DNA of 34,237 nt, from IMG/VR virus record IMGVR_UViG_3300032083_001639, positions 1-34,237 of that record. The stretch is one strand, 5' to 3'. Source of the stretch: a virus. Positions 14,608 to 34,237 of the stretch are shown piece by piece; position 1 is the stretch's first letter, and every line of letters starts with the position of its first letter. The notes under the pieces are model-generated. The model made no database searches. It was given only the letters and a program-made list of their open reading frames with translations, and was not told the DNA's origin. Both the position numbers and the translations under genes were made by a program.

Positions 14608-15570
14608 TTATATTCCTCCTTTCTTTTGTGATTTCACCCTGTTAAGGGCATACCCAGTCGCTTGGTTAAGTAATCTTAGGGCCTTAACCAGGTCGTGGTC
14701 AGAATAGTTGATTGCCTGCACGGATTTTTCTCTCCTCATCTCCGCCCTCACCGCCCGAATAGCGTGCAGGATTTCCTTAACTTGCAACCGCATCTTTCCC
14801 AACTCTGCGGCATCGTCTCGTTTTACTGCTTTCTTCTTAGCCTTTTTCGGCATATTCAAATACGATGACAAATCCTTCTCCTTAATACCCAACTCCTTCG
14901 CCCTGGCTATAACCGTAGCAGTAGCCAACGCAGGTACAGGCACCGCACTCACCTCCAATAACTCCTGCTTCGTATATCGGTTTCCCTCCCTCTCAAGCGG
15001 CAGGAAGCCAACCGAAAAGCCGTCCAATAGGGGCGGGTTGGCTTCGTACATAGCCTTCACCGTTTTGTTAAACTCTGTCGACTCGTCAAATACGGGTTCA
15101 AATACCAGCTTCTCAGTCTCTCCGAATTTCTCCACTCTCATGTTCTCAGCACGCCCGACTGGCAGCCCGTTATGCGCCGGGTTACGGTTGTGCATCCACA
15201 GCAGGCGAGGCGATTTGTTAAAGTTCGATAAGTCCCATCCCTTCACGCTGATAACCTCTCCCTCCCTGTCCTCGACCTCCTCGGAAGCGATAGCGACTAT
15301 TTTACCGTCACTCTTTTCCGTCTTCGCACTGATCCGTTTCATCTCCATATCCTCCCCGGCATCCTTATTATGTTCGGCAACCCATTTTGACGCTTTCTCC
15401 ATATCCCATTTGTCCTTGTCGAACAGGTACGTCATAATCATCTTCTTCGGAATACAAAACAACCCCTTAATGCCAGCTTCCGCAGATATATCTATAGTGC
15501 GTACCTCTGCGCATTCCCCCTCGAATTTCGGGTTCGGAACTCTCACATACTTATCGGTAATTTCTGGCAT
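14608..15570 (-). CDS. Prohead protease (S78/U35-like)
   Basis: A 320-residue protein. I chose ATG 15570 (MPEITDKYVRVP) because this N-terminus fits known phage proteases that carry an extra domain; an open extension to 15636 runs through a hairpin. The catalytic pattern is clear: His in LLWMHN (about residue 127), Ser in GFSVG (about 186) and the EVSAVPVPA strand (about 206-214). It would cleave the capsid delta domain. A C-terminal Lys/Arg-rich helical tail of about 90 residues may act as scaffold. Its last codons hold the capsid ribosome binding site. Confidence 0.85.
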   Translation of the reverse strand: MPEITDKYVRVPNPKFEGECAEVRTIDISAEAGIKGLFCIPKKMIMTYLFDKDKWDMEKASKWVAEHNKDAGEDMEMKRISAKTEKSDGKIVAIASEEVEDREGEVISVKGWDLSNFNKSPRLLWMHNRNPAHNGLPVGRAENMRVEKFGETEKLVFEPVFDESTEFNKTVKAMYEANPPLLDGFSVGFLPLEREGNRYTKQELLEVSAVPVPALATATVIARAKELGIKEKDLSSYLNMPKKAKKKAVKRDDAAELGKMRLQVKEILHAIRAVRAEMRREKSVQAINYSDHDLVKALRLLNQATGYALNRVKSQKKGGI

Positions 15571-15585
15571 TTCGTGGTAGATAAC

Positions 15586-15630
15586 AAATAAAAAACCCGA
15601 TACCAACAGAGAATCTCTGTAAGCATCGGG
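15586..15630 (-). terminator. Rho-independent-type terminator just before the protease start
   Basis: On the minus strand CCCGAT pairs with ATCGGG, enclosing a second stem ACAGAG/CTCTGT with a 3-base loop, and TTTTTTATTT follows at once. This is a textbook intrinsic terminator. The T-run ends about 15 bases before the protease ATG at 15570. It may limit or attenuate flow into the protease and capsid genes, or be controlled by the Com-like protein encoded just upstream. Confidence 0.75.
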
Positions 15631-15663
15631 CATCATTGCCTCATTCCAGCGTCTTGCGCTTTC

Positions 15664-19429: not shown

Positions 19430-20322
19430 TAGAAGGCGGTCTCATAAATGTTATATGTAGCCGTAGTTCTGGCGGCGTATGCCAGTGTGTAGGTAGTTAG
19501 TGTCGGATTGTTCGTAATCGAGGCGTATGTAAACACCGGGAAGTTTCCCGTCTCGTCTATTTTGCAGATATACCAGACCCCACTACTGTCCTCTTTGCAG
19601 ATATACGTTACGTTGGTAGTCGTGTAGTCGTCAATCGCATTCGTCTTGAACCGAGAATCGGTATTGATCAAGTCGCCCACTACCACATCTGCGTCTATTT
19701 GCAGGTGACCATCGCTATCGACTAACGCCTGCTTCGCCTCTCCCGTAGACGTAACAAACGGAAACGTCTGCCGTGTGGCTGAGGACACGGCGGTTACCAA
19801 GGTATCTATGAACTTCTTGCCATCGCTTAGGCGTACCGCAATCGGACGCTTCGCATCTCCGCTTCCTTCGATTTTAACCGCTTGCACATCCTTTTTGAGA
19901 GATAATACAGCCCCTAGAAGGCCCTTAAAATGCACGGAAAGCCACGAGGACTCCCGTAGCCCCACCTCTTCGGGAAACTTTTCAGCCTTCGGGAACTCTA
20001 TATCCTTCAGGTTGCTTACCGTTACAGAATCGGGAAATGCCTGCTGGTTCTCAACGTATACTTTGTACAACTCAGGCAGGTTTACCTTGCCATCGTTTAC
20101 CAATACTTTCAGGTCGTATAGCAGGTCGGATAGCTTCGTAGTCTCGGAAGATAGCGACTTCTCAAGAGACGACAACGCATTCTGTAATTCTTTCGTGTTT
20201 TCAACTGCCGTGTTTCTGGTAACCTTTTCGGATAACAGCAACTCTTTCAGCAGTTCCTTCTGTTCGTCTCCCAGTACCGCATCAGCTTGCCTCTTCAGTT
20301 CCTCGCTGTTCATAGAGTGCAT
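19429..20322 (-). CDS. Structural protein with N-terminal coiled coil
   Basis: A 297-residue protein. Residues about 5-90 are a coiled coil; a middle part with KKFIDTLVTAV and DSDGHLQIDADVVV looks like a phage structural fragment; the end is beta-rich with aromatic residues. It overlaps the portal-MuF gene by about 40 bases; ATG 20313 is an alternative start. It may be a scaffold or minor head protein, or a stalk for the neighbouring surface proteins. Family not recognised. Confidence 0.55.
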   Translation of the reverse strand: MHSMNSEELKRQADAVLGDEQKELLKELLLSEKVTRNTAVENTKELQNALSSLEKSLSSETTKLSDLLYDLKVLVNDGKVNLPELYKVYVENQQAFPDSVTVSNLKDIEFPKAEKFPEEVGLRESSWLSVHFKGLLGAVLSLKKDVQAVKIEGSGDAKRPIAVRLSDGKKFIDTLVTAVSSATRQTFPFVTSTGEAKQALVDSDGHLQIDADVVVGDLINTDSRFKTNAIDDYTTTNVTYICKEDSSGVWYICKIDETGNFPVFTYASITNNPTLTTYTLAYAARTTATYNIYETAF

Positions 20323-22825
20323 TTCTCAAGTTATCTCGCAACTCCTGAATCTCAGATAGTATAGCTTCCTTTTCAGATTGCGCCTCTGCAACCGCCTTTT
20401 CGTGCATCTCCTTCGATTCCTTTTTCAAGTCTTTCTTTTTCGCATCGTGTGCAGCGTCCAACTCTTTCAGCTTCTCCTCGGCCTCTTTCTGTTTTTCCTC
20501 AAGATTCTTGATTTCCTTCTCGTATAGCTTCTGCGTTACCGCCTTGTAGACGTTGTTTACCTCCTCATGCGTATGTGCAGCCTCCTGTCCCCGTCTCATG
20601 CTGCGAGTCACGGGAACAATAGTGCAGCGACACCGTGGATGAAGCGGCGGGTACTGTACGCTGGAAACCTTGATATCCATCTTTCCACCACTCGTCTCGA
20701 ATGTGTCCCCCTTATCGAAGAACACCTCCTCCACACCGACCACCTTACCGTCCATTTCTGCACAGTACGGACACGTTCTCTCGTCAGCAGCGGTCAGCCA
20801 TTCCTTAGAAACAACGATGCCAGACTGTCGATACGCCTCGTTTGCGCTGAAGTTTGCAGCCCGCAACACCTCCGTGCGTGAAATCATGGCGGCACGCACC
20901 TCCATGAAGTCAGTATACACGGCAGCTACCCGGTCTCGTAACTCGTTTATTCCCTCTCCTTTTCTCAATCCTTCAGACAGCGTGGCTATCACATCGCTTC
21001 GAGTAGTCGAGTTGACCTCCTTGATAAAAGAATAGCCGAGGTTCTCAAGATACGAGACTACCTCTTGCGCCTCCATATTGAAGTTCCGCATCAACCCGTA
21101 ATCGTAAAGCACCTGGTCTCCTTGCGCTTTTACAATTCTTTCAAGATACGGTTCTATATCTTTGTACCACCTCTGGTTCTCGCTTCTGCTTGAATACACG
21201 AAGTCTTGGCCAGTCATTTTCTGATGCGCCAGCTTCAGAGACTTCGGCTGAGAGTACTTGGACAACTCGTCCAGTATCAGGCGGTGCTGTTCCTCAGCAA
21301 GATGGATCAACTGTATCCGAAGGGCATCCTCCCAGACATCAGTTCGTGCGACTAGCTGCTTCCACTTCGCCTCTTTAAGAACCTGCTTCTCCTCCTCGGT
21401 CTGTACCTCCTCGTATTCCTTGTCCTTCATTAGCGCACCGACCAGCTTTACCAAATCGTGCTTGATAGTCTGCTTGATACCGTCCTTGATAACCTCAAGC
21501 GGTTTTTTCGGGGGCGCACCTACAGATAGCTTCAGCTTCTTTACCGGGGTCTTTCCCTGCATCTTTGCAAACCTCTGCTGCGGCACCTCTGGAATCGGGT
21601 TTCCCTCCTCGTCCAGTCTCGGTTCTTGCGGCTGTGACGGTTCTTCCTCAGGTACTTCCCCGATTGCGGGCTTCATACCGAACGGCAGGTAGATAGTATC
21701 TCCCCCCTCAAGCGGTTCGTAGCCCTCCTCGTCCCTGACCTCGTTTGGTGTCAGCCAGCCGTATTTAAGTCCAGACTCGTAGATGCGTAGCTTCATATCC
21801 ACATCCTCAGGAACCGGGTCTTCAAAATCGAAAAACAACGCCCCGCTAGTATCGAAGTTAGGCAGGTAGAACTCGGTCAGGTATTGAACAAACGTAGTCA
21901 ACATCGGCTTCACAACCGACTTCATCAGTCTAGCGTCTGTAGCCTCCTGGTTGGCCCGGTTCACATCCTCAACCACCCCGATATTGGCCTTGCTAACCCC
22001 GAAGGTGGCCAGTATCTCGTCCCTGATATACTTCTTCGTTTCCAGAAAGTCCATCTCGTGCATCTTGCCGCCGATTTCTTGTATATTCCATTCCCCGCCA
22101 GTCAGCAGGGCCACCTTATGCGCATTCGCAGTACCTCCGAACTTCTGATAGAAACCCTCAAGCAGCCGGGTCGCAGTTGCCTGGTCTACGTTCTTGTCGG
22201 TCATTAGAAACAGGTACGGAAGCGCAGAATTGAAAAAGAAGTTCCTGTTCCACTCGCTTGAGAACTGGTCGATATCCATCGGCATCGCCCCTGCCCTGAC
22301 GGCACCGTATCCACGGTACGGGTTAGTCGGTGAGAAGTCCTTAAAGAATAGCAGGTCTTGTACTTCTATCCGCACGCTTTTGAAATCGGAACCTCCCGGC
22401 TTGTACTCGTAGTGGTCTATAAATCTATCCTTGCTTGGTATCACACTGATCCAATCTGGCCGAAGCGGCCAAATCTGTTCGATTAGCTTCCCCTTACGAA
22501 TGAACGCCCACGCAGCCTCTCCCAAAAGGCACATATACGCTACATACATCCGCTTCATCAAGTCCATCGTCATGAAGTCGTTAACGTAGTACAGAGAGGA
22601 TAACGCAGCGTGTTCTTTTACCTCCTCGATATCCGTATCGCCACCCTTTTTCGTTACGGTCTTGTACAGCTTGAGAGGTACCGCAGCGAACATATTCGCT
22701 ATCGTATTGATAGCAGAATACGACCAGCCCTGGTATGCGTTCAGGTAATCTGAAGCTTTTTTAGCGGGAGGTTCTGGGAGGTTTATAACGGAGTCGCTTC
22801 GGTATTGCGGGATTTCAGTAGCCAT
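20282..22825 (-). CDS. Portal protein fused to MuF-type head morphogenesis domain
   Basis: An 847-residue protein. I chose ATG 22825 (MATEIPQYRSD) over the upstream TTG. Residues about 15-390 fit an HK97-type portal (for example NPYRGYGAVRAGAM, FGVSKANIGVVED, LTPNEVRDEEGYEPL). After a Pro/Glu-rich link, residues about 605-740 fit MuF: RTEVLRAANFSANEAYRQSG, then WLTAADERTCPYCAEMDG and LHPRCRC with Cys at about 685, 688, 732, 734. The last ~95 residues are a Lys/Glu coiled coil. Portals pass DNA; MuF proteins are minor head proteins injected or bound inside. Fusion into one chain with a coiled-coil tail is unusual but known in some phages. Confidence 0.85.
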   Translation of the reverse strand: MATEIPQYRSDSVINLPEPPAKKASDYLNAYQGWSYSAINTIANMFAAVPLKLYKTVTKKGGDTDIEEVKEHAALSSLYYVNDFMTMDLMKRMYVAYMCLLGEAAWAFIRKGKLIEQIWPLRPDWISVIPSKDRFIDHYEYKPGGSDFKSVRIEVQDLLFFKDFSPTNPYRGYGAVRAGAMPMDIDQFSSEWNRNFFFNSALPYLFLMTDKNVDQATATRLLEGFYQKFGGTANAHKVALLTGGEWNIQEIGGKMHEMDFLETKKYIRDEILATFGVSKANIGVVEDVNRANQEATDARLMKSVVKPMLTTFVQYLTEFYLPNFDTSGALFFDFEDPVPEDVDMKLRIYESGLKYGWLTPNEVRDEEGYEPLEGGDTIYLPFGMKPAIGEVPEEEPSQPQEPRLDEEGNPIPEVPQQRFAKMQGKTPVKKLKLSVGAPPKKPLEVIKDGIKQTIKHDLVKLVGALMKDKEYEEVQTEEEKQVLKEAKWKQLVARTDVWEDALRIQLIHLAEEQHRLILDELSKYSQPKSLKLAHQKMTGQDFVYSSRSENQRWYKDIEPYLERIVKAQGDQVLYDYGLMRNFNMEAQEVVSYLENLGYSFIKEVNSTTRSDVIATLSEGLRKGEGINELRDRVAAVYTDFMEVRAAMISRTEVLRAANFSANEAYRQSGIVVSKEWLTAADERTCPYCAEMDGKVVGVEEVFFDKGDTFETSGGKMDIKVSSVQYPPLHPRCRCTIVPVTRSMRRGQEAAHTHEEVNNVYKAVTQKLYEKEIKNLEEKQKEAEEKLKELDAAHDAKKKDLKKESKEMHEKAVAEAQSEKEAILSEIQELRDNLRNALYEQRGTEEAS

Positions 22826-22837
22826 AGATAGCAAGTA

Positions 22838-24157
22838 TTAAATATAAATGTTCACTTCTGCTACCGATGGCGAGTAATATGCAAGTGCTAGGGCATCTGC
22901 CATATCTGGACTTTTCAGTCCTCTTTTTTTCATATCGTCCTTACTCTCGATAATCGTCTGGCCTCGGCTGTTATATCCGTACTTGATATTCGCCAGCTGA
23001 CCGATCAACGTATCATCGTTCGGAATCGAAATCGCCTTATCCCGGAACCTCTCTCTCAGTCCCCAGTAAATCTCGCTTCTTAGGGACTGGAACTGTTCCG
23101 TGTTGCTGGCAGACTCGGCAACATTGACTCCAATTACATCGTATCCCAACTCTTTCAACCTGTCAACTACGCCAGCACCCATTCCGATAACGTCTATCTT
23201 CGTACGAATCGGTTTGTATTGTTCGATAAGGTTTTTCAGACGCCCTACCGTTTCCATAGTATCCTGCTGCGAGTAGGATTGTAGGTCGACTACGTTCTCT
23301 CCGTTCCTGACGATAAAGACAGTCATATCCGATCCGAAGCGTGCTACATCGCATCCGATTTCCACAGCCCCGGTAACTCCTTTTCGGTTCACACAGTTCT
23401 CGACCCACTTTAGCGGTATTACCAAGTCCTCCCCAGACTGAGAGAACTCCCCCTTCACACGGGTCTGGTACAGGGGCGACTCCTCACCCCAATCTGCCTT
23501 GCGAGACTCTATCCACTCCCGGCTTACCCGTGGCGAGTCCTCGCTATTCGTATGGAATAGCTGGTAGTTACCCTTCTTGCGGGCGAATATATCGTAGAAA
23601 TACCCGGCAGTTTCCGGGGGCGGTGTAGATATCACTAGCTGCTTTGCGCCTACCGTGGTTAAGGCACCCTCACACGCCTCAAACGTACCTTCTGGAATAG
23701 ACTTCGCCTCGTCAAACACAAAGAACAGATGTTTCGCATGAAACCCTTCCATCTTTGCCGGGTCGTCTGAAGCCTCTCCTGTAGCGAACCATTCCTCGCC
23801 ACGCTTCAGCATCAGGTTTAGCGACTCGTATTCTTGCGCCCCGATCAATTCCAAATTCGCCTTGCGCCTCCATTTATGAATCTCCGGCCATAACTGCTTG
23901 CTGACCTGCCTCCACGCAGACGCCGTAGTAATGATACGAGAGTTCGGAAAGCAATCGAAATACCAGTTTACCGCAACCGCAGCCGTAGTGGTTTTCCCGA
24001 CTCCGTGTCCGCTGCGCCACGCTACCTTCTGGTTATTCTGAATAGATACCAAGACATCCTTCTGGTACTGTTCCAACTCGACACCGAGAATATCCTGTGC
24101 GTAATACAGAATATTATTGCGTGCCGTCTGTAAGTTGTGGAGTTGTTCCCTGGTCAT
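22838..24157 (-). CDS. terL: Terminase large subunit
   Basis: A 439-residue DNA packaging motor. Walker A is GHGVGKTT (50-57), Walker B is LFFVFDE (144-150), and the coupling motif ISTPP is at 176-180. The nuclease half has D270 (IGCDVAR), D322 (TKIDVIGMGAG) and the late DMADALALAYYSP (418-430). It overlaps the small subunit by 44 bases. The set of acidic residues of the nuclease appears intact. Confidence 0.92.
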   Translation of the reverse strand: MTREQLHNLQTARNNILYYAQDILGVELEQYQKDVLVSIQNNQKVAWRSGHGVGKTTTAAVAVNWYFDCFPNSRIITTASAWRQVSKQLWPEIHKWRRKANLELIGAQEYESLNLMLKRGEEWFATGEASDDPAKMEGFHAKHLFFVFDEAKSIPEGTFEACEGALTTVGAKQLVISTPPPETAGYFYDIFARKKGNYQLFHTNSEDSPRVSREWIESRKADWGEESPLYQTRVKGEFSQSGEDLVIPLKWVENCVNRKGVTGAVEIGCDVARFGSDMTVFIVRNGENVVDLQSYSQQDTMETVGRLKNLIEQYKPIRTKIDVIGMGAGVVDRLKELGYDVIGVNVAESASNTEQFQSLRSEIYWGLRERFRDKAISIPNDDTLIGQLANIKYGYNSRGQTIIESKDDMKKRGLKSPDMADALALAYYSPSVAEVNIYI

Positions 24158-24461
24158 CTTTGTCCTCTAACATTTCTAACGCCTGTTCGTAGGTAAGATG
24201 TATCTGCCCGCTATGTTCTACCGTCTCTTTCGGCAAGCCGTCCATATACGCCCAGATGGCTTTCTGCATCTGCACATCCCCCTCGACTATGGCTTTATGA
24301 AACATACGCTTAACAAGCAGCATCGCATACGTTTCTTTCTGTTCTTCAGGAACCTCGGAAAGCATATTCCGAACTATCTCCGTAATAGATATCCCCTTCG
24401 GCCTTCCGTTCCTGTTTATGTTTTCCGGGTGCTTATTAAACCCCGCTACTGGTGGTGCCAT
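24114..24461 (-). CDS. Terminase small subunit-like protein (DUF5681-type)
   Basis: A 115-residue protein starting GFNKHPENINRNGRPKG, the mark of DUF5681-type DNA-binding proteins in the small terminase slot. A helical region with IVRNMLSEVPEEQ and MQKAIWAYMDGLPKETVE follows. It would bind the packaging site. It has no Shine-Dalgarno box. A G-rich repeat spacer sits directly upstream. Confidence 0.7.
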   Translation of the reverse strand: MAPPVAGFNKHPENINRNGRPKGISITEIVRNMLSEVPEEQKETYAMLLVKRMFHKAIVEGDVQMQKAIWAYMDGLPKETVEHSGQIHLTYEQALEMLEDKDDQGTTPQLTDGTQ

Positions 24462-24491
24462 TGTAAATCATTGTATATCTATCTAACTATG

Positions 24492-24571
24492 ACCCCTCCC
24501 CTACCCCACTGCGCCCCTGTCCAAATATGCCGAAAACGCCCACATATTAAATAAAAACCCCTCCCCTACCC
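24492..24571. repeat. Direct repeat and G-rich spacer upstream of terS, candidate packaging site
   Basis: A 15-bp direct repeat ACCCCTCCCCTACCC occurs at 24492-24506 and 24557-24571. On the minus strand the first copy belongs to four runs of four G (24493-24517, loops of 1, 2 and 6 bases), which fits a G-quadruplex motif. The spacer carries no gene and lies right before the terminase genes, the common location of a pac or cos site. Confidence 0.5.
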
Positions 24572-25767
24572 TACTCTACCGACTGTTCAACTTTTGTCCT
24601 CGTTTTTCCCGTTAGCTTCTCCCATCTCTGGCATATAACCTCGCAGTACTTCTGGTCTATCTCCATCATATAACAGATACGGTTTGTTTGTTCACAAGCT
24701 ATGAGGGTGGAACCGCTACCGCCAAACACATCCAATATAATATCATTGTCTATTGTGCTATTATAAATTGCCCGTGAAATCAGTTTTATAGGTTTCATTG
24801 TCGGATGTAAATATGTGCCGTGCGTTTCTTGTTTTTCTTCCCAAACATCAGATTGATTTCTTCCACCATAGAAAGCGTGTGCGTTTCCGTCTTTCCAGCA
24901 ATATATTATAAACTCCCATTGAGTATGATAATCAGAACGTCCAAGTACAAATTGGTTTTTTACCCAAATAATCCTGGAACTTATTTTGTACCCCATCTCG
25001 CTTAACAAAGGTGCGAGTAGGTGGTATTTCTTTCCACCAAAGCAAATATAAAAAATTGCCGAATCTTTTGTTACACTTAACTGATTAATAAGAAAAGAGG
25101 AAAGAAATCTGCTAAATTCTAAATCATTTAAGTCATCATTCAACACTTTTCCCAAACTTTTTTTAGGTTTGCCAGACGGACGGGTGTCCGTATCATATCC
25201 TACCCCATACGGAGGGTCGGTGAACACCATATCCGCCTTCTTGCCGTCCATCAGCTTCTCGACATCTTCCTTGCTGGTACTATCCCCACACATCAACCGA
25301 TGCTTTCCAAGAAGAATAACATCGCCCCTCTTTATCTCGGTGACAACCTCTTCTGGTTGTTCGTAGTCGTCCTCGTTCACTTCAATAACAGGTTCTGGCA
25401 TCAGGTTAGAAAAGTCTAACTCTTTCAGAATGTCCTGGTAATCGTTTGCGAGGATATCCATATCGAACTCTCCCCGGTGTTCGTTATCCAACACGATTAC
25501 CTTCTTCTTCTCCCCCTCAGACAGCTTTCTGCTTGGCAGGGACACCTCGATTTCCACGTCACCTGATAGATCAGCGACCCGTTTCCTCTGGTTTCCGCCC
25601 AGTACGGTCAGGTCGGTATCGCATACCAACGGCCTGAACTGTCCTAACTCGTCTATATCTTTCTTGAGTTTCTCGAATCCTTCCTTCGTAATCGTGCGTG
25701 GGTTATTCTCCAACAGTCTTAACTCGGACACCTTTCTTTTTTCAGTATGCCACGTTAGTTTTTGCAT
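24571..25767 (-). CDS. ParB-like nuclease domain fused to DNA methyltransferase
   Basis: A 398-residue protein. Residues 1-125 are a ParB/Srx-like domain (LLENNPR at 19-24, LGGNQRKRVA near 57). Residues about 145-390 are a beta-class N6/N4 methyltransferase with catalytic DPPY at 184-187, HPTMKP at 321-326 and SAM motif FGGSGS at 348-353. Such fusions are common in phages and methylate DNA, perhaps to escape restriction. The methyltransferase half from about 24600 to 25170 is far more AT-rich (about 25-32 percent GC in sampled 60-base blocks) than the ParB half (about 57 percent), so the halves likely have different recent origins. Confidence 0.88.
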   Translation of the reverse strand: MQKLTWHTEKRKVSELRLLENNPRTITKEGFEKLKKDIDELGQFRPLVCDTDLTVLGGNQRKRVADLSGDVEIEVSLPSRKLSEGEKKKVIVLDNEHRGEFDMDILANDYQDILKELDFSNLMPEPVIEVNEDDYEQPEEVVTEIKRGDVILLGKHRLMCGDSTSKEDVEKLMDGKKADMVFTDPPYGVGYDTDTRPSGKPKKSLGKVLNDDLNDLEFSRFLSSFLINQLSVTKDSAIFYICFGGKKYHLLAPLLSEMGYKISSRIIWVKNQFVLGRSDYHTQWEFIIYCWKDGNAHAFYGGRNQSDVWEEKQETHGTYLHPTMKPIKLISRAIYNSTIDNDIILDVFGGSGSTLIACEQTNRICYMMEIDQKYCEVICQRWEKLTGKTRTKVEQSVE

Positions 25768-26630
25768 AGTTTCCGTAATAACCGTTTATATTCAGCAACC
25801 GATTGTTTCACGTCCCAGTTTTTCAGTACCTCATTGTACATCTTTTCAGCTTCCTGTATGCGTGCCGCCTTAGTGGACAGTCTGACAAAATCTTCCGGGA
25901 ACTGTATGACTGGCACCTTAAGTGCAGCGCAGGTTAGCACCTTGTTATTGCTTTTGAAGCCTCCCTTATAGTCGATGCGTCTCATAGGTAGTATAGCCAC
26001 ATCCGCTTCTGTCAGTTTGCTATGTATGTCTGGATACGAGTATTTATAGAACGCAAACGGCAGGGAACGGTACTCGGTAGGCAGGGATACCGAGGTATCC
26101 GAGATAGCGGTCAGCTTGATATTGTACTGCTTGAGAAATGGCAGGGCGTCTGTAATGTACCTGAAGTTCTGGGCGTAACCGAACCAGACGGCGTTTTGTA
26201 TTTTGTCGCTATGTACTTTCTTGTACGGCGTATGTTCCTCAAGATTCACTCTATCGGGAATGCACAGACACGGCTTGTCGATCAGCTTGGCAACATATTC
26301 CGCTAACGCCGGGGTGGACGTGGTTACTGCGTCTGCCAATTCGCAGTATTTAATAACATCCCGCTTATCCTGCCAGTCTGGGTCGCACAGGTCGAGAATC
26401 TTGATAGCAGACGTGTTCGTCATCATCATTTCCCAGTACACTTTTTGGAATATGAGGACATCGTACTGCTTTCCTATCTTCCATTCTTCTGCGTTTTTCC
26501 ACTGTTCCCACAGCCACCGTGCCCGAATCCTGGTAGACCCGATAGAGTCTACAGGTCGGTTATCTGTTTTCTCGAAGGTAATAAATCCAACCTTCAGAGA
26601 ATCGACATCTCTTTCAGCATAGTCCGCCAT
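25755..26630 (-). CDS. Glycosyltransferase, GT-B fold
   Basis: A 291-residue protein. The N-terminal half has KVGFITFEK and an SIGSTRIRARWL segment as in glycosyltransferase family 1/4-like proteins. Near 145-235 are VWFGYAQNF, ADVAILPMR and a KSNNKVLTCAALKVPVI motif, which is the donor-binding pattern of GT-B enzymes. It overlaps the methyltransferase start by 13 bases and the upstream transferase end by 37. The natural start may be a later codon near residue 12. Sugar and acceptor are unknown. Confidence 0.7.
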   Translation of the reverse strand: MADYAERDVDSLKVGFITFEKTDNRPVDSIGSTRIRARWLWEQWKNAEEWKIGKQYDVLIFQKVYWEMMMTNTSAIKILDLCDPDWQDKRDVIKYCELADAVTTSTPALAEYVAKLIDKPCLCIPDRVNLEEHTPYKKVHSDKIQNAVWFGYAQNFRYITDALPFLKQYNIKLTAISDTSVSLPTEYRSLPFAFYKYSYPDIHSKLTEADVAILPMRRIDYKGGFKSNNKVLTCAALKVPVIQFPEDFVRLSTKAARIQEAEKMYNEVLKNWDVKQSVAEYKRLLRKLCKN

Positions 26631-27637
26631 TGCATCTCGAAGTGTGAAAAGTTAAATCTCTGCTGTGCCGTTTCTTTACCTTTCTGTCCCACCTTGATGG
26701 CAACGTCCGGGTAGTCCCTGATGAGTATCTTGATAAGGTTAGCCGTATACTCCGGGTTATCCATCATTCTGGGGTCTTTAATCGCAGACAGGGACGTTAG
26801 AAAGCCGTTCGTCTCATCGTTGTATACCAACTCTCCGCTATCTGACAGTCTTCCAGAGGTGATAAACGTGGAGGCGTCCTGGTACGGCGTAGTCACAACG
26901 CAGCACCCAGACAGCATCGCCTCGGTTCTGACCCGTGGCATCGGGGAGTTCCAAGTCGGCATAAAAAACACTAGCGACCTACCAAGAAAATCCTTGTACT
27001 CGTCAAACGTATCGAATTGCTTTCTAGTGACCCCGATCCACTCGAACGGAATCTCCCAGTCCTCTAGGTATCTCAAAACCGCTTTCGGGAACTCACGCCG
27101 ATACGCTTTCTCCATGCCAGCTGGCGACAGCACGATAATGACCCGTGGTTCTTTCGGCAGGTCTAGCCAGTCTTCTGCGTTCATGCCGTGCGTGATAGTT
27201 CTACCGAAGCCCCACTGTTTGCGTGCCTCGTGAGAGTTCACTACCATGGTATTGTTTCCGATAAGTTTCTTGAAGTATCTCACTACATACGCAGAGTCGT
27301 ACTTATCGTGGAACGGCGTCATGTGGTTGATAACGATTTTCGGGATATCCGTAATCACCTCGTTTAACTCCTGGTAAATCCTACCCTTTGCGATTCGGTC
27401 ATCGTCTTGCGGCGAGTAGATGCACTGTTGGTCTACATGAAGAATGGCAAAATCGTAGTATCCCTTCTCGTAATGGTCGACATACTTGAACTTATCCGAA
27501 ATCTCCCGCTGAGACGCTGCCAGACCTTTCTTGAAGGGTTCTATTTGCAGGGCGTACTCTTTGATAAACGGAAGCTGAGAGAGGGCTGCCTGGTGCGCCG
27601 TATGCCACGGGTGTCCGAATACCTTTAGTTTTTTCAT
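26594..27637 (-). CDS. Glycosyltransferase, GT-B fold
   Basis: A 347-residue protein with a GT4-like C-terminal donor site (SPMPRVRTEAMLSGCCVVTTPYQDA at about 231-255; VIIVLSPAG near 168). The N-terminus has GHPWHTAHQAAL, and IVINHMTPFHDKY near 100, resembling acceptor-side loops. Its ATG overlaps the upstream TGA (ATGA). It likely adds one sugar in a phage-encoded glycan. Confidence 0.7.
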   Translation of the reverse strand: MKKLKVFGHPWHTAHQAALSQLPFIKEYALQIEPFKKGLAASQREISDKFKYVDHYEKGYYDFAILHVDQQCIYSPQDDDRIAKGRIYQELNEVITDIPKIVINHMTPFHDKYDSAYVVRYFKKLIGNNTMVVNSHEARKQWGFGRTITHGMNAEDWLDLPKEPRVIIVLSPAGMEKAYRREFPKAVLRYLEDWEIPFEWIGVTRKQFDTFDEYKDFLGRSLVFFMPTWNSPMPRVRTEAMLSGCCVVTTPYQDASTFITSGRLSDSGELVYNDETNGFLTSLSAIKDPRMMDNPEYTANLIKILIRDYPDVAIKVGQKGKETAQQRFNFSHFEMQWRTMLKEMSIL

Positions 27638-29211
27638 CCGTAGAGTTTATACAATATTAACTTCGCCTTTCGGATACTATCTCTTTTTTTCGATTTCGAG
27701 ATATTTTTCGCAAGCGTATCCGCCTTGGCATCGTAGTTTAAGACCAGATCAAACGAGTTCCACGAGAAGCGAGTCCGTAACTCCTGCGAGGTTCCCCCGT
27801 AATAATTGATTCTCTCGTTAAACATACCGAACTTGGTCAGGTCTACTCGCATAATCGCAGACAGGTTTTCCACAAACCCTTTCTCCACATCGTCTTTGAT
27901 TCCCCATTGCCAGATGCCAGGTGCGTGCTTTGTTACAAACGATAGCAAGCATCCCTGCCTCATGCCCATTCTCTCATCGCAAAAGACGAGTAGTTCTCCT
28001 TGAGACTCTACAACCGCCCGGTTTCTAGCCTGCGCCAGCGTCCATTCCCCATGGTTATCGAAGCGTATGTATCTAATAGGCACATCCGACTGTTTCCGAA
28101 ACTCCTCAACAATAGGCTGCACCGAGGTGTTTCCGCTATCCGATATGATTATCTCCTTGCAATCGTAGTTCTGGGACAGTATTTTAGATATGCACTCTAT
28201 AAGAACGGCTGGCCTATCGAATGTAGGCACGATAACCGATACGAACGGCTTGTCATCGTTCGTCATCATCTTGTAATAGAGTGCGCAGAACTTCCAAGCC
28301 ATCCTATCGTCTCCCCAGTTTTTCACGGTATCCCAAGCCTTATCCCGCAGCTTATCCCGCCGGGCACGGTTTTCCAATAACTCGGATACCTCCTTTTTCA
28401 AGTCCTCGATATCGTCCTCTTTCTTCAAGCGCACGACCATATTGCCGCCGTCCCCTTCGCTGTACAACTCGGATACATGACCGATATTTCGGGTCAATAC
28501 GGGCACTCCGCACGCCATCGCTTCGAGAATAGGTAAGGTTCCCGACTCGAAGTTATCTATCGAGTTACAGACGTGGAGTGCGCTATCGTAGTAATGCCGA
28601 GGCAACTCATCGTCCGGGACGTTCTCGTAAAACTCCATCTCTGGACAGACGGTTTTAATCTGGTCAAAGTACTCCTGTGACGAGATACGTCCTACCAGGC
28701 GGAAGGGTACCTGCAAGTCGTGGCACACCTGTGCTACCTCTCGGACTCCCTTCTTTCCCTCTATTCTGGCTACTACCATCAGTACTCGGCTGCTTTCGGT
28801 ATACTTCTCGTTGTATACAAACTGTTCCAGGTCTACCCCGTAGTTGATCAACTCCGCAGAGGGCATCTTTTCCAACATGGTCTTATTGCCGACTATGATG
28901 CGTTCATACTCTTTTCCCCATTCTTTCTCTTCCAAATCGTACGGATTGTAATGGCACAGTATCTTCTTTTTACTAGTCCACGTTGCGAAGTCGATAAACT
29001 CTTTCAGCTTCTCCCCACTTTTCCAATACGCAATCTGAACGATATCCGCCCACTTGAACGCTTCCACGGCATCTGCAATTTGCAAAGCGTCCGGGCGTTT
29101 CGGGTGGAACGCCACCAGCTTAATCTTGAGGTGCGGGTTATGCCGGACGATAGCCTTACTCAGCCTGCCGATTGCGCTGTCATACTTGTCTACAATTATA
29201 GCGATTCTCAT
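27634..29211 (-). CDS. Two-domain glycosyltransferase (GT4 then GT2)
   Basis: A 525-residue fusion. Residues 1-315 are a GT-B enzyme with VARIEGKKGV at 147-156 and the donor motif FESGTLPILEAMACGVPV at 221-238. Residues 322-525 are a GT-A enzyme of family 2, starting SVIVPTFDRPAVL with LAQARNRAV near 392 and metal site CDERM at 411-415. Fusing two transferases lets two sugars be added by one chain, in order. It lies between a kinase-like/methyltransferase gene and another transferase. Confidence 0.8.
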   Translation of the reverse strand: MRIAIIVDKYDSAIGRLSKAIVRHNPHLKIKLVAFHPKRPDALQIADAVEAFKWADIVQIAYWKSGEKLKEFIDFATWTSKKKILCHYNPYDLEEKEWGKEYERIIVGNKTMLEKMPSAELINYGVDLEQFVYNEKYTESSRVLMVVARIEGKKGVREVAQVCHDLQVPFRLVGRISSQEYFDQIKTVCPEMEFYENVPDDELPRHYYDSALHVCNSIDNFESGTLPILEAMACGVPVLTRNIGHVSELYSEGDGGNMVVRLKKEDDIEDLKKEVSELLENRARRDKLRDKAWDTVKNWGDDRMAWKFCALYYKMMTNDDKPFVSVIVPTFDRPAVLIECISKILSQNYDCKEIIISDSGNTSVQPIVEEFRKQSDVPIRYIRFDNHGEWTLAQARNRAVVESQGELLVFCDERMGMRQGCLLSFVTKHAPGIWQWGIKDDVEKGFVENLSAIMRVDLTKFGMFNERINYYGGTSQELRTRFSWNSFDLVLNYDAKADTLAKNISKSKKRDSIRKAKLILYKLYG

Positions 29212-29227
29212 TTCTCGGAAAATAAAG

Positions 29228-30268
29228 TTATTTGTAACAGTGATAAATAGGCTTATCTCCGTGGTCTTTCGCCTGTCCTACCAAATCCACTCTTGAGAAC
29301 ATTCTTTGCAGCGTATCTATAGCGTCCCGTTCCTTAGAGTTATCCTCGAATATGCAGACCTCGTTTGTGACATCGGCAAGCCATTCCGGCACGCCGTGCA
29401 GGTGCAAGTTGATACTGAGAAAGAACACGATATCCGCAGCGTCTCCCCGTTCCGTTCTCAAGTCTTTAGAAACGTAGTCGATATCCCAGTATCCTAACTC
29501 CTGAGACACCAAGTACGCTGCCAGACACGGGTCGCTGCTACCGTGTCCCGCATGGTCGTATCCGACAACCTTCGATGCGAGATGGTTTTTAGCGTACCGA
29601 CAGAAGAACCCGCCAGCGCATCCGTAATCGGCAACGCTTTTATTTGCAAAGTTGATCCGCTTCAGTCCCAGGTACTCGATTCTATCAAGCGATTTTCGGG
29701 GGCCTCCCGTCAGGTTGAACTCGGGCACGTCCTGATAGTACACCTTACCGTACTTACCGAGGTCGCAATAGAACTCCCGCATCTTTTCCCGATGGGTATC
29801 CGTGAACTGAAACGTGTTGAAGTCTACTAGCATACCTCCGACAACATCGTGCATAGACACATCGTCCCGTTCGTTTTTCCAGCCGTACTTGATGCCCAAG
29901 TCTTTTACCGCATCGTACACCTTTTGCGCCTCCTCGTTGCTTTCCGCCAAGTCGTTCCCGGCATCCTGCTGTAGCTGTCCCCAATACCTAGTGCGCTGAA
30001 TAATCACGCCTACGATATCGTACACACGGGGCGCAAGACCGTGCCAGGCGCACATATTCTGAATAAACGTAGCCTCTACTAGACGGGACGACTTGTTCGG
30101 CCCATCGTCTTTCGGCAGGTCTCCCCAGCGAAACGATTCCAAGTTATCGAACTCCTCTTGCGGATACACGTTAAACACCTTGATAAGGCGTCCCTCTCCG
30201 TGCGGAATCATGATGCAATGCTTGCCGCATTGCGGGCGGATGATATGCACCTCTCTCAAATCTTCCAT
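29228..30268 (-). CDS. Kinase-like domain fused to SAM methyltransferase (copy A)
   Basis: A 346-residue protein. The C-terminal half (about 205-346) is a class I SAM methyltransferase with VADYGCAGG at 212-220. The N-terminal half has kinase-like elements: a lysine strand GRLIKVFN (26-33), a helix with AWHGLAPRVYDI (74-85) and a DFG-like VDFN (148-151); the catalytic loop is degenerate. It is a clear paralog of the protein at 33003-33992. The E. coli O-antigen terminator WbdD also joins a methyltransferase and a kinase, in the other order, and caps chains. It overlaps the deacetylase gene by 13 bases. Kinase assignment is inference. Confidence 0.65.
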   Translation of the reverse strand: MEDLREVHIIRPQCGKHCIMIPHGEGRLIKVFNVYPQEEFDNLESFRWGDLPKDDGPNKSSRLVEATFIQNMCAWHGLAPRVYDIVGVIIQRTRYWGQLQQDAGNDLAESNEEAQKVYDAVKDLGIKYGWKNERDDVSMHDVVGGMLVDFNTFQFTDTHREKMREFYCDLGKYGKVYYQDVPEFNLTGGPRKSLDRIEYLGLKRINFANKSVADYGCAGGFFCRYAKNHLASKVVGYDHAGHGSSDPCLAAYLVSQELGYWDIDYVSKDLRTERGDAADIVFFLSINLHLHGVPEWLADVTNEVCIFEDNSKERDAIDTLQRMFSRVDLVGQAKDHGDKPIYHCYK

Positions 30269-30813
30269 TTCAGAACCTTAAAAAACTCAGATGCGTGGAC
30301 GGTTAAGTATGGACGCTGCCATTGCGAGGTGAACAGGTTCAGTATCTCCTGTTTCTTTTTCGGACACACGGACACTTCCAAATCGTATTCTTGAGACAGG
30401 TACGACCAGGAATGGTACCCTAGTACCAGGCCGTTATAGTTTCGTACGGCAGACAGTGTAGCCTCGCAGACGCTTCTGTGGTCTTGATGGTGGTCGCTTT
30501 CTATATGCGTGAATATGATATCCGGCCTTTGTTTAGAAATTACCTCAGTTAATGTTCCGATCAACTCGAACAGTTCCGTATACAGCTTTCCATCCGTGAA
30601 GTCCAGAAAGGACACATCGGCCCCCAGCTTTTGACCTGCGCTATCCGCCTCTACCACCCGGTCTATAGCGTTTCCACCCGTATGTCCTGCCGTACAGACG
30701 ACAAAATGCTTCCTCGACCTCTTGAATAGACGCAGCAACGTACCGCCGCATCCCAACTCGATATCGTCTGGATGCGCCCCGATGCAAACTATGGTAGGGT
30801 TGTTCGGAATCAT
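30256..30813 (-). CDS. PIG-L/LmbE-family deacetylase
   Basis: A 185-residue protein with start ATG 30813 (ATGA overlap with the upstream methyltransferase stop), preferred over the longer frame from 30858. The zinc site AHPDD (13-17), followed by ELGCGG, and the second His cluster SDHHQDHR (106-113) are the family marks. These enzymes remove the N-acetyl group from GlcNAc-type sugars, freeing an amine. In this cassette it would modify an amino sugar before or after transfer. Confidence 0.88.
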   Translation of the reverse strand: MIPNNPTIVCIGAHPDDIELGCGGTLLRLFKRSRKHFVVCTAGHTGGNAIDRVVEADSAGQKLGADVSFLDFTDGKLYTELFELIGTLTEVISKQRPDIIFTHIESDHHQDHRSVCEATLSAVRNYNGLVLGYHSWSYLSQEYDLEVSVCPKKKQEILNLFTSQWQRPYLTVHASEFFKVLKWKI

Positions 30814-31319
30814 TTTATAAAGACGCCAATTTGTTTTTCTACCTCCGCAACTTCCCACGGGTAGAAGCTGGCAACGTCCCCGAACGTCCAGTAGCTGATA
30901 TGCTTCTCAAACGGGTTCCCGAAGTGTTCTGCACCCTCATACGGTTCGCTATCTGATAGCGGAATAGACAGCACCAGGTGTTTTCCAAGTGCCAATACCT
31001 GGTGAAGAAGCCGTATACCCTCAATAAGCCGTATATGTTCCAACACGTCCCCGAAGATAACGCAATCGAACAGGTTATAAAACTCCATAGACACGATAGA
31101 ACAGTCTGCTATACGCACCGATTTGTAGATGCTTTCGAGATTGAACCGTTCTTTATACGGATAGAAGATGTCCAGGCCTGTCCATTTGTATCTATCCACG
31201 CCCAGCAGTTTCGGATAGGTACCCTGACCGCACCCGACATCGAGAACGGTTACGATATCGCTTCTCTTATCGAACCACTCTTTTACGATATGCTTTCCAT
31301 GCGATGTAGAACTTGGCAT
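30810..31319 (-). CDS. Class I SAM-dependent methyltransferase
   Basis: A 169-residue protein with SAM motif VLDVGCGQG (25-33), motif II-like LDIFYP, and DVLEH near 91, as in small methyltransferases that act on sugars or lipids. The ATG directly follows the upstream TAG. It is shorter than full enzymes but has all main motifs. Its neighbour is the deacetylase, so an amino sugar substrate is possible. Confidence 0.8.
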   Translation of the reverse strand: MPSSTSHGKHIVKEWFDKRSDIVTVLDVGCGQGTYPKLLGVDRYKWTGLDIFYPYKERFNLESIYKSVRIADCSIVSMEFYNLFDCVIFGDVLEHIRLIEGIRLLHQVLALGKHLVLSIPLSDSEPYEGAEHFGNPFEKHISYWTFGDVASFYPWEVAEVEKQIGVFIK

Positions 31320-32153
31320 CTAGGCGGTAAACTTTCCAAACAGGTTATACCCGAATTGAGAATCTGATAGCGAGTTTAGCCTGGGCTGCATAATTGAGGG
31401 GTGAGAGGATATCGGCATCGGATTTTTCTCTCCCTTCTTATCGTAGTTCGCCAATAGGTCGGTTATGTAGACCTCGTAATACTCGTCATCGGTTAGCAGT
31501 TCCTTATGGTGCTGCGTATCTATCATCCTCCCGTAGCGGGCTGCCTTGGTCTTGATAACGTCCTGCGTATCGAATGTATGTTCGTACCCGAACAGGTAGA
31601 CCCCGGTGTTTACGGACTTCTCCTGTTCTGTCTTATGAATCATGCCCCAGCTAGGTATGCCTCTTCCGTCATCGTTATAGAAATCGAACCTATCTCCCAT
31701 TCTCTTCTTGTTATAGATTCCAGAATGCTTATGCTGCGCCCAGTACAGTTTCGGAGTGAATATACGGTACTTCTCCCAGTATGCGTTGTGCCAATCGTTA
31801 TCTGCCGAGAGACGGCTTAAGGTGTTTCTCAAGCCGTCTACGTCCTTCTCGTGCAGCACGCCGTCCGCATCGAACATCAGCACGATATCTCCGTGACACG
31901 CCTGATACCCGGTAGTCCTAGCGATACCGTACGATTTCCAGCCAAGCTGTTCTATATTGAAGTAAGTATGCACTACACGCACTTTCGACTCGCTTGCAAA
32001 CGTCTCCCGAATAACCGTCTCGGTATCGTCCTTCCCGTACGGGTTTACTATAACTACCAACTCGTCCACAACGGGCAGAAACGAGGTTACCGACTCGATA
32101 AAGGGATAGCATCCCCAGATAGCCTCGCTTATCACGCACATTCCGCTAACCAT
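31320..32153 (-). CDS. Glycosyltransferase, GT-A fold
   Basis: A 277-residue protein with a GT2-like start, DELVVIVNPYGKDDT, and metal-binding DAD in VLMFDADGVL (95-97). A later acidic/aromatic region (YNDDGRGIPSWGMIHKTE) could hold the catalytic base and acceptor site. The start is preceded by an A/T-rich leader with no Shine-Dalgarno box. Donor and acceptor unknown. Confidence 0.72.
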   Translation of the reverse strand: MVSGMCVISEAIWGCYPFIESVTSFLPVVDELVVIVNPYGKDDTETVIRETFASESKVRVVHTYFNIEQLGWKSYGIARTTGYQACHGDIVLMFDADGVLHEKDVDGLRNTLSRLSADNDWHNAYWEKYRIFTPKLYWAQHKHSGIYNKKRMGDRFDFYNDDGRGIPSWGMIHKTEQEKSVNTGVYLFGYEHTFDTQDVIKTKAARYGRMIDTQHHKELLTDDEYYEVYITDLLANYDKKGEKNPMPISSHPSIMQPRLNSLSDSQFGYNLFGKFTA

Positions 32154-32169
32154 GTTTTTAATAAATCAA

Positions 32170-33006
32170 TTAAGATAGCATTCCCCAGCCGTTATATCCG
32201 AACATCTCTGGAGTCATATTCCGCACGGCCTCCCTAATAAAGACCGGGTGTTCTTCAATCGTAATGGGCCGGATGTTTCTCGTAAGCCTCATCTTCATCA
32301 TGTTCACGAAGTAATCAAACGATTCTTCCTCAGTCGATCCGAACCTCCACTCTTTGAAGTATCGGTAGTACGCCTGCGAGAACCTCCAGAACTCTCTGCG
32401 AGTCTCCTCTTTCGTCTTAAACGTATAGTCGTAGTTATAAAACGGAAGGCGCACTGGGACTATCGCTTCTTCCCGGAACCTGCCGTACGGTACTCCGTCC
32501 TCGCTAATATCTTTAACATAAATCGGATAGCACAAGTCCGTTCTCATATTGTCCGCCTTTCCGAACTGAATCCTGTCTGAAAACTGTCCCTTGTTAATCG
32601 CCATCGGCACGCTTCCTTTAACATAGTATCCATCCCGTGTGACCAGGCTGTTTTTGTGAAACGAACCTATCGGCACCAGACCACGCATCGCAAGGCGTTT
32701 CCTGATAAGCGGTATATCGTTCTCGTGGAATATGTAGTCGATATCGCAGCGTATTACCCAGTCCCCGGAAGCCGCTTCCAGACCCTTATTCAGATGCTTC
32801 GGCAACTCCTCCCAACTCCAATCCCACGGCCAATGGTAATGCACGACCTTCATATCGCCATCGCTTTTTAACGTGCAGCTGCCGTCCACTACGATAATCT
32901 CGTCTGCAAACTGACGATACGATTCCAAAGCAGCCTTCCAATTCGGGTCTCGGACGTCTACGGTTTCCTTTTCGTTTCCGACACAGGTCAGTATGGTAAC
33001 CTTCAT
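32170..33006 (-). CDS. Glycosyltransferase, GT-A fold
   Basis: A 278-residue protein if started at ATG 33006, which overlaps the upstream stop as ATGA; ATG 33015 is the alternative. It has a family 2-like core: DEIIVVDGSCT near 36, then WVIRCDIDYIF with DID metal site at about 88-90. The second half is rich in aromatic and charged residues. It lies between a kinase-like/methyltransferase and another GT-A gene. Confidence 0.72.
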   Translation of the reverse strand: MKVTILTCVGNEKETVDVRDPNWKAALESYRQFADEIIVVDGSCTLKSDGDMKVVHYHWPWDWSWEELPKHLNKGLEAASGDWVIRCDIDYIFHENDIPLIRKRLAMRGLVPIGSFHKNSLVTRDGYYVKGSVPMAINKGQFSDRIQFGKADNMRTDLCYPIYVKDISEDGVPYGRFREEAIVPVRLPFYNYDYTFKTKEETRREFWRFSQAYYRYFKEWRFGSTEEESFDYFVNMMKMRLTRNIRPITIEEHPVFIREAVRNMTPEMFGYNGWGMLS

Positions 33007-33992
33007 ACCTTGCATTTATAAAGTAACCTCTCACTCCTATCGTCTGTAGTACCCAAGTACTCAACTATCGGAAACAGGCGGTATAGCTGCGTCTCGGTCT
33101 CCTGCTTGGAATCGTGTGCGTGACCCTCGTAGTACAACGTATTCGTAGTGATTTCTTTCAGCCAGTCTGGGAACCCTAGGTACTCACTCATAGCCAGGTA
33201 GAACACGATATCTGCCGTCTGCTTCACACCGTCTATTGGCAGCACATCCAGCGTGATACCGTAGCGGTTGGTAAGACCCAGGTATTCCTGCGCTACCTGG
33301 ATAACCGGGTACAAGTCGTACCCGAAGCAGGTTGCACCCCGGTCAAACGCATAATGCAGGAACACTCCCAGATTGCATCCGATATCCACTACCGTCTTTC
33401 CCTTGAAGTCTATACTGTCTAACCCCATCGTTTTAATTCGGTACGAGGTAGCCCGCTTGCCGACAATAGAGGCCTCTGGAACACTCTGGTACGATACCCG
33501 CCTGCCGTCTATTAGCTTTCCGAAATGTGTTATCTCGTCTATACGGGAAAACAACATCTCCTTGTACTCGCTGTACTCTCTGAAAAAGCAGCCCCCGAAG
33601 TCCACATACTTCCCGTCAAACCAGTTCTCTTCGTTACTTTGCGTCTCGCTGTGGTCTCCTTCGTACAAAACGATGCCGTACTTGTCCGCAACCTCGAATA
33701 GACGCTTCTCGTTTTGTACACCCATCTTCTGAAGACGTTCCTGAACGATATAGGTGTACCCATGAGATTCCCCCACCTCGTATGTGCGTGGTGCCAAGCC
33801 GTGTGCGTAGAAGATATTGCTAATCTGTACCGCCTCTTTCACGTCCGTACCCTGCCAGGTAGGCTTCCTGATAAGTTTCACTACCTGAGAATCAAAGGCC
33901 TGTATACCCAACTCGCTTACCTGGGACGGCGTGAGTAGTATCGTATGCTTCGACCATTTCTCGCAGTTTGCTAATAAATCGGACTCATTCAT
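33003..33992 (-). CDS. Kinase-like domain fused to SAM methyltransferase (copy B)
   Basis: A 329-residue paralog of the protein at 29228-30268. The kinase-like half keeps clearer marks: a Lys strand QVVKLIRKP (36-44), helix with YAHGLAPRTYEV (62-73), hinge-like YIVQE (81-85), an acidic loop with D113 and N120, and a true DFG at 131-133. The methyltransferase half has VVDIGCNLG at 201-209 and ADIVFYLAM near 259. Shared words with copy A include GLAPR, VP in the linker, and ADIVF. It overlaps the dehydrogenase fragment by eight bases. Role in capping or decorating a glycan is inferred. Confidence 0.65.
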   Translation of the reverse strand: MNESDLLANCEKWSKHTILLTPSQVSELGIQAFDSQVVKLIRKPTWQGTDVKEAVQISNIFYAHGLAPRTYEVGESHGYTYIVQERLQKMGVQNEKRLFEVADKYGIVLYEGDHSETQSNEENWFDGKYVDFGGCFFREYSEYKEMLFSRIDEITHFGKLIDGRRVSYQSVPEASIVGKRATSYRIKTMGLDSIDFKGKTVVDIGCNLGVFLHYAFDRGATCFGYDLYPVIQVAQEYLGLTNRYGITLDVLPIDGVKQTADIVFYLAMSEYLGFPDWLKEITTNTLYYEGHAHDSKQETETQLYRLFPIVEYLGTTDDRSERLLYKCKV

Positions 33993-34237
33993 GTTCTCCC
34001 TGCATGGTATCGTTAATATCGTAGCCGACCTCTAATCCCTTCTCCTCTCGCAGCTGCTGGTTATACTCAAGCACGTCTATGATCAATCTCGGTTCGTAGC
34101 CGCTTTCCTGACACGCCCTTGCGAAAGCGTTCAAGTCCTTCGGCAAACACTTACCTCCGAACCCGGCAGCGTCCTTAAACGCCAGCGTATGAAAATACTC
34201 CATTCTTGGGTCTGCAAGCCAGCCCTCTCTGACTGCG
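33985..34237 (-). CDS. UDP-glucose/GDP-mannose dehydrogenase family protein, 5' end cut
   Basis: The frame is open to the right edge, so the N-terminus is missing. It has DPRM, then GFGGKCLPKD, the strongly conserved active-site Cys motif of the UDP-glucose dehydrogenase family, and a helix YEPRLIIDVLEYNQQ. The protein then stops about 53 residues after that motif, whereas family members usually carry a further UDP-binding domain of around 100 residues. So it may be a short form. It would make a uronic acid donor for the transferases downstream. Confidence 0.72.
   Translation of the reverse strand, partial: AVREGWLADPRMEYFHTLAFKDAAGFGGKCLPKDLNAFARACQESGYEPRLIIDVLEYNQQLREEKGLEVGYDINDTMQGEHE

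Follow-up and report, generated by a model that had tools for sequence, protein, structure and literature searches.

Introduction

Bacterial loci for O-antigen and flagellin glycosylation combine a conserved core with highly variable sugar genes, and their enzyme classes are also found in the subject of this study, a ten-gene glycan cassette in the IMG/VR virus record IMGVR_UViG_3300032083_001639. The entire record, 34,237 bases long and itself a genome fragment, was analysed and is called the window below. Freeman et al. 2023 reportedly described virion glycosylation in mycobacteriophages. Capsid glycosylation of chloroviruses (PBCV-1) is carried out outside the host pathway and gives a conserved glycan core with variable decorations (PMC4691112, PMC7826918). 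In mycobacteriophages, phage-encoded transferases glycosylate the capsid and the tail tube, as cited in PMC12619734. In surveys of groundwater and Patescibacteria phages, nucleotide-sugar genes are listed as host-directed auxiliary metabolism (PMC10980836, PMC12911398).

The last three genes of the cassette, gtBA-gtB2-gtB3, form a core which, judged by its recurrence, is a lineage-wide trait of uncultivated tailed phages. We propose that the cassette is a cytoplasmic phage-encoded pathway with a conserved core and variable decorations, which would glycosylate one or more virion proteins. We give this reading, including its presumed acceptor, a probability of about 0.55.

A glycan cassette beside the packaging genes

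Nearly all long frames of known function in the window lie on the minus strand, and so does the cassette, which spans 34236 back to 25755 with all ten reading frames present and co-directional. Families were assigned with Pfam and PHROGs. In transcript order the genes are a dehydrogenase remnant, kmt1, gtA1, gtA2, a free methyltransferase, PIG-L, kmt2, gtBA, gtB2 and gtB3. Neighbouring genes overlap or are at most 16 bases apart, as expected from the earlier note, which had described head-to-tail packing with mostly overlapping stops and starts. Its inventory of five transferase proteins with six domains of both GT-A and GT-B type, a PIG-L deacetylase, a free methyltransferase, two fused ones and a dehydrogenase fragment agrees with the frames and with the Pfam and profile searches, which give three domains of each type. 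The dehydrogenase is truncated by the contig end and not by mutation, because the window is the whole viral record. Downstream of gtB3 follow a ParB-DNA methylase, the small (TerS) and large (TerL) terminase subunits, a portal-MuF protein, three uncharacterised proteins, the head protease, the capsid protein and tail genes. The cassette therefore runs towards the terminase as had been claimed, but not straight into it, since the ParB-DNA methylase (24571-25767) and TerS (24114-24461) intervene.

Base composition (GC) and strand skew show no break across the block. There were 10 promoter-like matches inside it against 15.7 expected from shuffling, and 5 terminator-like matches against 11.1. Such counts below the shuffled expectation would fit one transcription unit; they are compatible with it and are not proof.

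Conservation of the core in uncultivated relatives

Relatives found through TerL (57%, 53% and 37% identity) carry gtB3 upstream, and in some also gtB2 and gtBA. A gtB2 profile made from four sequences detected 117 relatives in IMG/VR, and 80 of them were retained for analysis. Among 81 gtB2 loci, gtB3 was present in 79 and the portal gene in 73, and gtBA was found in 41 of the 42 loci having at least 4 kb upstream. The order gtBA-gtB2-gtB3 recurs upstream of packaging and portal genes. Divergent relatives repeat these genes in the same order, so the cassette is not a product of chance.

The locus set was picked by gtB2, and the presence of gtB2 in it is uninformative; the co-occurring genes are informative. 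Scans with the portal alone and with kmt alone were used to lessen this selection bias. All six loci that scored 640 or more for the portal and had 4 kb or more upstream contained the core; below 640 with the same room, none of 23 did. When 2.5 kb upstream was required, 13 of 16 loci had the core; in the three without it, the upstream sequence is about 2.6 to 3.5 kb long and perhaps does not extend far enough. The portal scan also gave nine gtB3-bearing contigs outside the gtB2 set. It is not fully independent: the gtB2 set already contained four of the six contigs, and core-carrying loci had served to build the portal profile. An alignment of the kmt2 family found 37 loci, 20 with the core and ten of these on new contigs; a search with the kmt2 sequence by itself gave no relative. 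In total, about 100 viral contigs, all uncultivated, carry the core.

For gtB2 and gtB3, tblastn gave no homologue in 50,697 named phages; megablast of the block against named phages gave no match, and gtBA had one weak match there, in its GT2 domain. The earlier note had called so long a gene set uncommon; this holds for cultured phages but not for uncultivated ones. No description of the gtBA-gtB2-gtB3 core was found in the openly licensed papers searched.

Linkage of the core to head genes

Linkage was measured as the Spearman correlation of pairwise tree distances. Distances of gtB3 correlated with those of the portal at 0.79 (n=49) and of the capsid at 0.83 (n=14); for gtB2 the values were 0.72 and 0.65. 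The dehydrogenase follows the core weakly, at 0.31 to 0.33 (0.31 against gtB3, n=22). The TerL proteins of the relatives split into several clusters (terL, c18 and c20) while the core is retained, so the link between core and head genes is not mere proximity to the terminase. From the agreement of core, portal and capsid distances, the core appears to be inherited together with the head genes.

Variable accessory genes

The periphery of the core is highly variable. In 57 loci with gtBA and gtB3 there were 140 accessory clusters, 86 of them in a single locus. Clusters seen often encode a class I methyltransferase (c5), the dehydrogenase, another GT4-like transferase (c8), a NodB-type deacetylase (c12), gtA1 and kmt. 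Those seen less often include an epimerase, a GDP-mannose dehydratase, a DegT aminotransferase, a sugar nucleotidyltransferase, an APS kinase and a sulphotransferase, the last a weak match. By analogy with these loci, the right flank beyond the window probably holds NodB, c8 and c5 genes.

Some further genes were observed inside the cassettes of relatives. An APS kinase (L124:5583-5942, PF01583, 8.2e-21) and a weak sulphotransferase match (L122:3008-3619) occur there, and the glycan may be sulphated in some relatives. Homing endonucleases of the HNH/NUMOD3 type (clusters c9 and c14, for example L087:1892-2506) appear repeatedly, and it is plausible that they drive the exchange of cassette genes. 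ClpP-like proteases (cluster c34, PF00574) are found in several cassettes, for example L082:1965-2522 and L138:4391-4975, separate from the head protease gene.

Enzymes of the cassette

The cassette genes described in this section are on the minus strand, as are the ParB-DNA methyltransferase, terminase, portal, head protease and capsid genes of the next. The core gene gtBA (27634..29211) encodes a two-domain transferase, GT4 (GT-B) followed by GT2 (GT-A), with matches to PF00534 (1.7e-17) and PF00535 (7e-14). Both EX7E glutamates are kept in 54 of 54 sequences, and its GT2 domain has an invariant DxR (54/54) where DxD is usual. The core gene gtB2 (26594..27637) is a GT-B transferase with a weak match to PF13692 (5e-5); its profile matched GT4 chains at 7e-8, and the second EX7E glutamate alone is kept (76/76). 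The core gene gtB3 (25755..26630) also matches PF13692 weakly, while fold prediction is clearly GT4/GT-B. Its predicted model (pLDDT 94) has BshA as the best PDB match, aligned end to end over 268 residues (Z 22.3, 2.8 Å). In 46 of 46 sequences it has neither EX7E glutamate, and it carries an invariant KSxNK motif (K-S-x-N-K, 46/46). A GT-B fold with a GT4 C-terminal domain is thus present in gtBA, gtB2 and gtB3, and by the EX7E motif gtBA would be the sole canonical member of the three. Among the fold matches of gtB3 are enzymes with small molecules, proteins, teichoic acid or DNA as acceptors. Because these GT4 enzymes act on such different acceptors, the acceptor is not readable from the gtB3 fold.

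The remaining genes are two transferases with donor and modifying enzymes. The remnant udh (33985..34236) is the C-terminal part of a UDP-glucose/GDP-mannose dehydrogenase (PF00984, 4.8e-9), a gene which is also present in 27 related loci at about 280 aa. The GT-A (GT2-like) transferase gtA1 (32170..33015) matches PF00535 at 1e-4, just under the cut-off, and its cluster is present in 20 loci. A second one, gtA2 (31320..32153), matches PF00535 at 1.8e-7 and has a very weak GtrB-like match (0.0048). The free class I methyltransferase (30810..31319) belongs to PF13489 (2.7e-9). The PIG-L family de-N-acetylase (30256..30858) matches PF02585 at 2e-23, with 83.7 bits against a cut-off of 28.2, and is assigned to that family; its start is most likely at 30813, as suggested by an ATGA overlap.

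Two genes, kmt1 (33003..33992) and kmt2 (29228..30268), encode a methyltransferase fused to an N-terminal domain without assigned family. In kmt1 the class I methyltransferase is a weak Pfam match (Methyltransf_23) in the C-terminal half, and the protein aligns with kmt2 and 10 relatives. The predicted model of kmt2 (pLDDT 86) was used for fold searches, in which its methyltransferase half matched the methyltransferase domain of WbdD (Z 16.0, 174 residues aligned). Several other methyltransferases score as well, and WbdD is among the best by aligned length. In the search with whole kmt2, the matches were all taken up by methyltransferases. The two fusions reported earlier were thus found, but the fusion partner is an N-terminal domain matching no sequence in Pfam or PDB. 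A kinase identity for this domain was considered from a residue pattern only; a PDB-sequence profile search was empty up to E 10, and the identity is not claimed.

Packaging and head genes

The ParB-DNA methyltransferase (24571..25767; phrog_498, 1.6e-118) is probably outside the glycan pathway. TerS (24114..24461) is probable from its position and a DUF5681 match (4.5e-4), and TerL (22838..24157) matches phrog_2 (1.1e-38). They are followed by the portal fused to a MuF-like head morphogenesis domain (20282..22834; phrog_2662, 3e-111), the head maturation protease (14608..15636; phrog_80, 1.9e-21) and the major capsid protein (13397..14605; phrog_10, 2.8e-77), a candidate acceptor. Counts of N-x-S/T sites and Ser/Thr over the structural proteins showed no acceptor that stands out.

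Between the portal and the head protease, 16671-19166 encodes an 831-aa protein with 22.7% Ser+Thr and a weak beta-helix match. It is possibly a head fibre or decoration protein, and a candidate acceptor of the glycan. In the 109-base gap ahead of TerS (24461-24571), a G-rich motif (GGGTAGGGGAGGGG-like, minus strand) is repeated about 60 bases apart; it is possibly a packaging site or a quadruplex. In a sibling contig (L002), TerS, TerL and portal are 90-93% identical to those of the window and the ParB-methylase just 56%; these identities suggest a recombination boundary immediately upstream of TerS.

Host

A core-carrying phage (L161 and L112, 99.98% identical) was found in a genome bin of Candidatus Magasanikbacteria, on a contig of 78.6 kb. 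The first 43.8 kb of this contig are chromosomal (DnaG, RpoD, ATP synthase, MreB, GreA and FtsQ, recognised by eye) and the remainder is phage. The chromosome of a close relative aligns to it at 84-88% until 43,790 and then diverges. The junction itself was located at G094:C48:43790-44058 in L161; the chromosome ends there after ftsQ, which is also where the homologous chromosome of the relative diverges. Either a prophage or a joined contig would fit this picture. In this phage, a different 583-aa protein occupies the position of the 831-aa protein of the window. Among 380 genomes of the phylum Patescibacteria, gtB2 was found in one, the starting Magasanikbacteria genome, and the link to a Patescibacteria host therefore rests on one contig. 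No weight was given to the metagenome-assembled genome labels of L162, L163 and L164; the L163 contig has phage genes and no obvious host gene.

Proposed function and alternatives

In the proposed pathway, the phage would bring its own nucleotide-sugar enzymes (in the window the dehydrogenase), glycosyltransferases that are soluble and cytoplasmic, and, as modifying enzymes, a de-N-acetylase and methyltransferases. Late in infection, gtBA-gtB2-gtB3 would build or attach a short glycan's core, with at least one virion protein as the carrier. The rapidly exchanged neighbour genes would then extend and decorate the glycan by methylation and deacetylation, and in relatives by epimerisation, amination and possibly sulphation. 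A virion protein is the best supported acceptor, by position, linkage and elimination. Late expression, the sugar identities and the purpose of the glycan (shield, stability or adsorption) belong to what we infer.

Several points weigh against this proposal. The acceptor is a presumed one. The linkage with the portal may come from shared ancestry of the gene block and not from function. Most records are fragments, which makes absences soft. The activity of gtB3 is uncertain, as the usual GT4 glutamates are missing. One relative has a TET-associated glycosyltransferase (TAGT) gene between ParB and TerS (L029:7837-8724; PF20691, 2.5e-51), which points towards DNA.

The earlier note had named the virion, the DNA and the host surface as targets; for the last two, expected partner genes were not found in about 50 relatives. 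Lipid-linked surface glycans require an initiating transferase and a flippase. Neither the lipid-carrier initiating transferase (PF02397) nor the flippase (PF01943) was found in any of 50 records, with positive controls and the records being fragments, and among 695 proteins upstream of gtB3 only three have more than one predicted membrane span. A phage that alters lipopolysaccharide, capsule or S-layer precursors in the course of infection or lysogeny, and thus blocks superinfection or changes the receptor, could use the flippase and lipid carrier of the host, and the nucleotide-sugar genes of groundwater Patescibacteriota phages were read as host-directed in PMC12911398. One relative, moreover, shares its contig with host genes, perhaps as a prophage. 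Against this, the block sits among head genes and tracks portal and capsid, and it has no GtrA/GtrB/GtrC arrangement, the GtrB-like match of gtA2 being very weak. We regard modification of the host surface as unlikely. The known forms of DNA glycosylation require a hydroxymethylated base, on which an oligosaccharide would be put so that restriction is evaded. The TAGT gene adjoining TerS, the DNA methylase gene adjoining the block in the window and the GT-B fold that gtB3 shares with T4 alpha-glucosyltransferase (Z 19.2, among many others) speak for such hypermodification. However, TAGT was found in 1 of 50 terminase-relative records, and a C5-methylase in just six viral records; the methylase of the window has a DPPY motif of the amino-methylase type, not C5. 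No thymidylate-synthase-family gene, the type expected for a hydroxymethylase, was present in the viral records tested, which are fragments (control positive; one match, in a bacterial genome bin), and a Tet_JBP search gave no match, with its control also silent. DNA as the target is thus quite improbable.

A small free sugar or modified polysaccharide, such as a compatible solute, inhibitor or signal, would require no glycoconjugate. All the enzymes look soluble, and BshA and other small-molecule transferases are among the folds nearest to gtB3, but these fold matches are common to the entire GT4 group. The strong diversification of accessory genes and the linkage to portal and capsid would be unexpected for a metabolite, which makes a soluble product very unlikely. 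Genes related to these often occur in bacterial surface loci, and a host region joined by assembly error, or a chance pile-up of unrelated morons, might be suspected. This is ruled out for practical purposes by the recurrence of the core on about 100 viral contigs and by the continuous composition and strand bias; as the earlier note had assumed, the block is a real phage cassette among structural, probably late, genes.

Virion glycosylation is therefore retained as the preferred reading. A more specific version is speculative. It would have gtB2 and gtB3 act as a paired transferase, one catalytic and one acceptor-binding as in GtfA-GtfB, which adds the first sugar to a head protein. The lineage, widespread and with at least some members that would infect ultra-small Patescibacteria, would carry an O-antigen-like core-plus-serotype locus with rapidly changing particle glycans. 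We consider these parts only tentatively, and jointly.

If the pathway is virion-directed, it would be a lineage-wide and genetically autonomous glycosylation pathway of tailed phages, a step beyond a stray transferase or two. Nucleotide-sugar genes that are at present classed as "auxiliary metabolic genes" of host metabolism would then, in these phages, probably serve particle decoration. The core genes are a concrete marker for finding cultivable members.

Comparison with known systems

The methyltransferase half of kmt2 resembles that of WbdD, the kinase-methyltransferase of E. coli O9a; unlike in WbdD, the second domain of kmt2 is N-terminal and without sequence match, and a kinase there is a guess. 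One relative shares a TAGT gene with the phages that modify DNA by TET-associated glycosyltransferases; in the window and the other viral relatives searched, no base-hydroxylating enzyme was found (the TET search had no positive control). In contrast to O-antigen and flagellin loci, no lipid-carrier initiation or flippase was found here, and there are almost no membrane proteins.

As in mycobacteriophages, the transferases are encoded by the phage, here near structural genes. Unlike in mycobacteriophages, there are five transferases together with donor and modifying enzymes, conserved across a lineage, and gtB2 and gtB3 are unmatched in named phages by tblastn. Chloroviruses differ in that PBCV-1 is a eukaryotic giant virus with scattered genes and a proven capsid linkage, whereas the present locus is a compact tailed-phage block with a presumed acceptor. 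The two have in common virus-encoded nucleotide-sugar enzymes, multi-domain transferases and a core-plus-decoration logic. The conserved core with its variable periphery suggests that the particle surface is under diversifying selection, as it is in bacterial serotypes and in chloroviruses.

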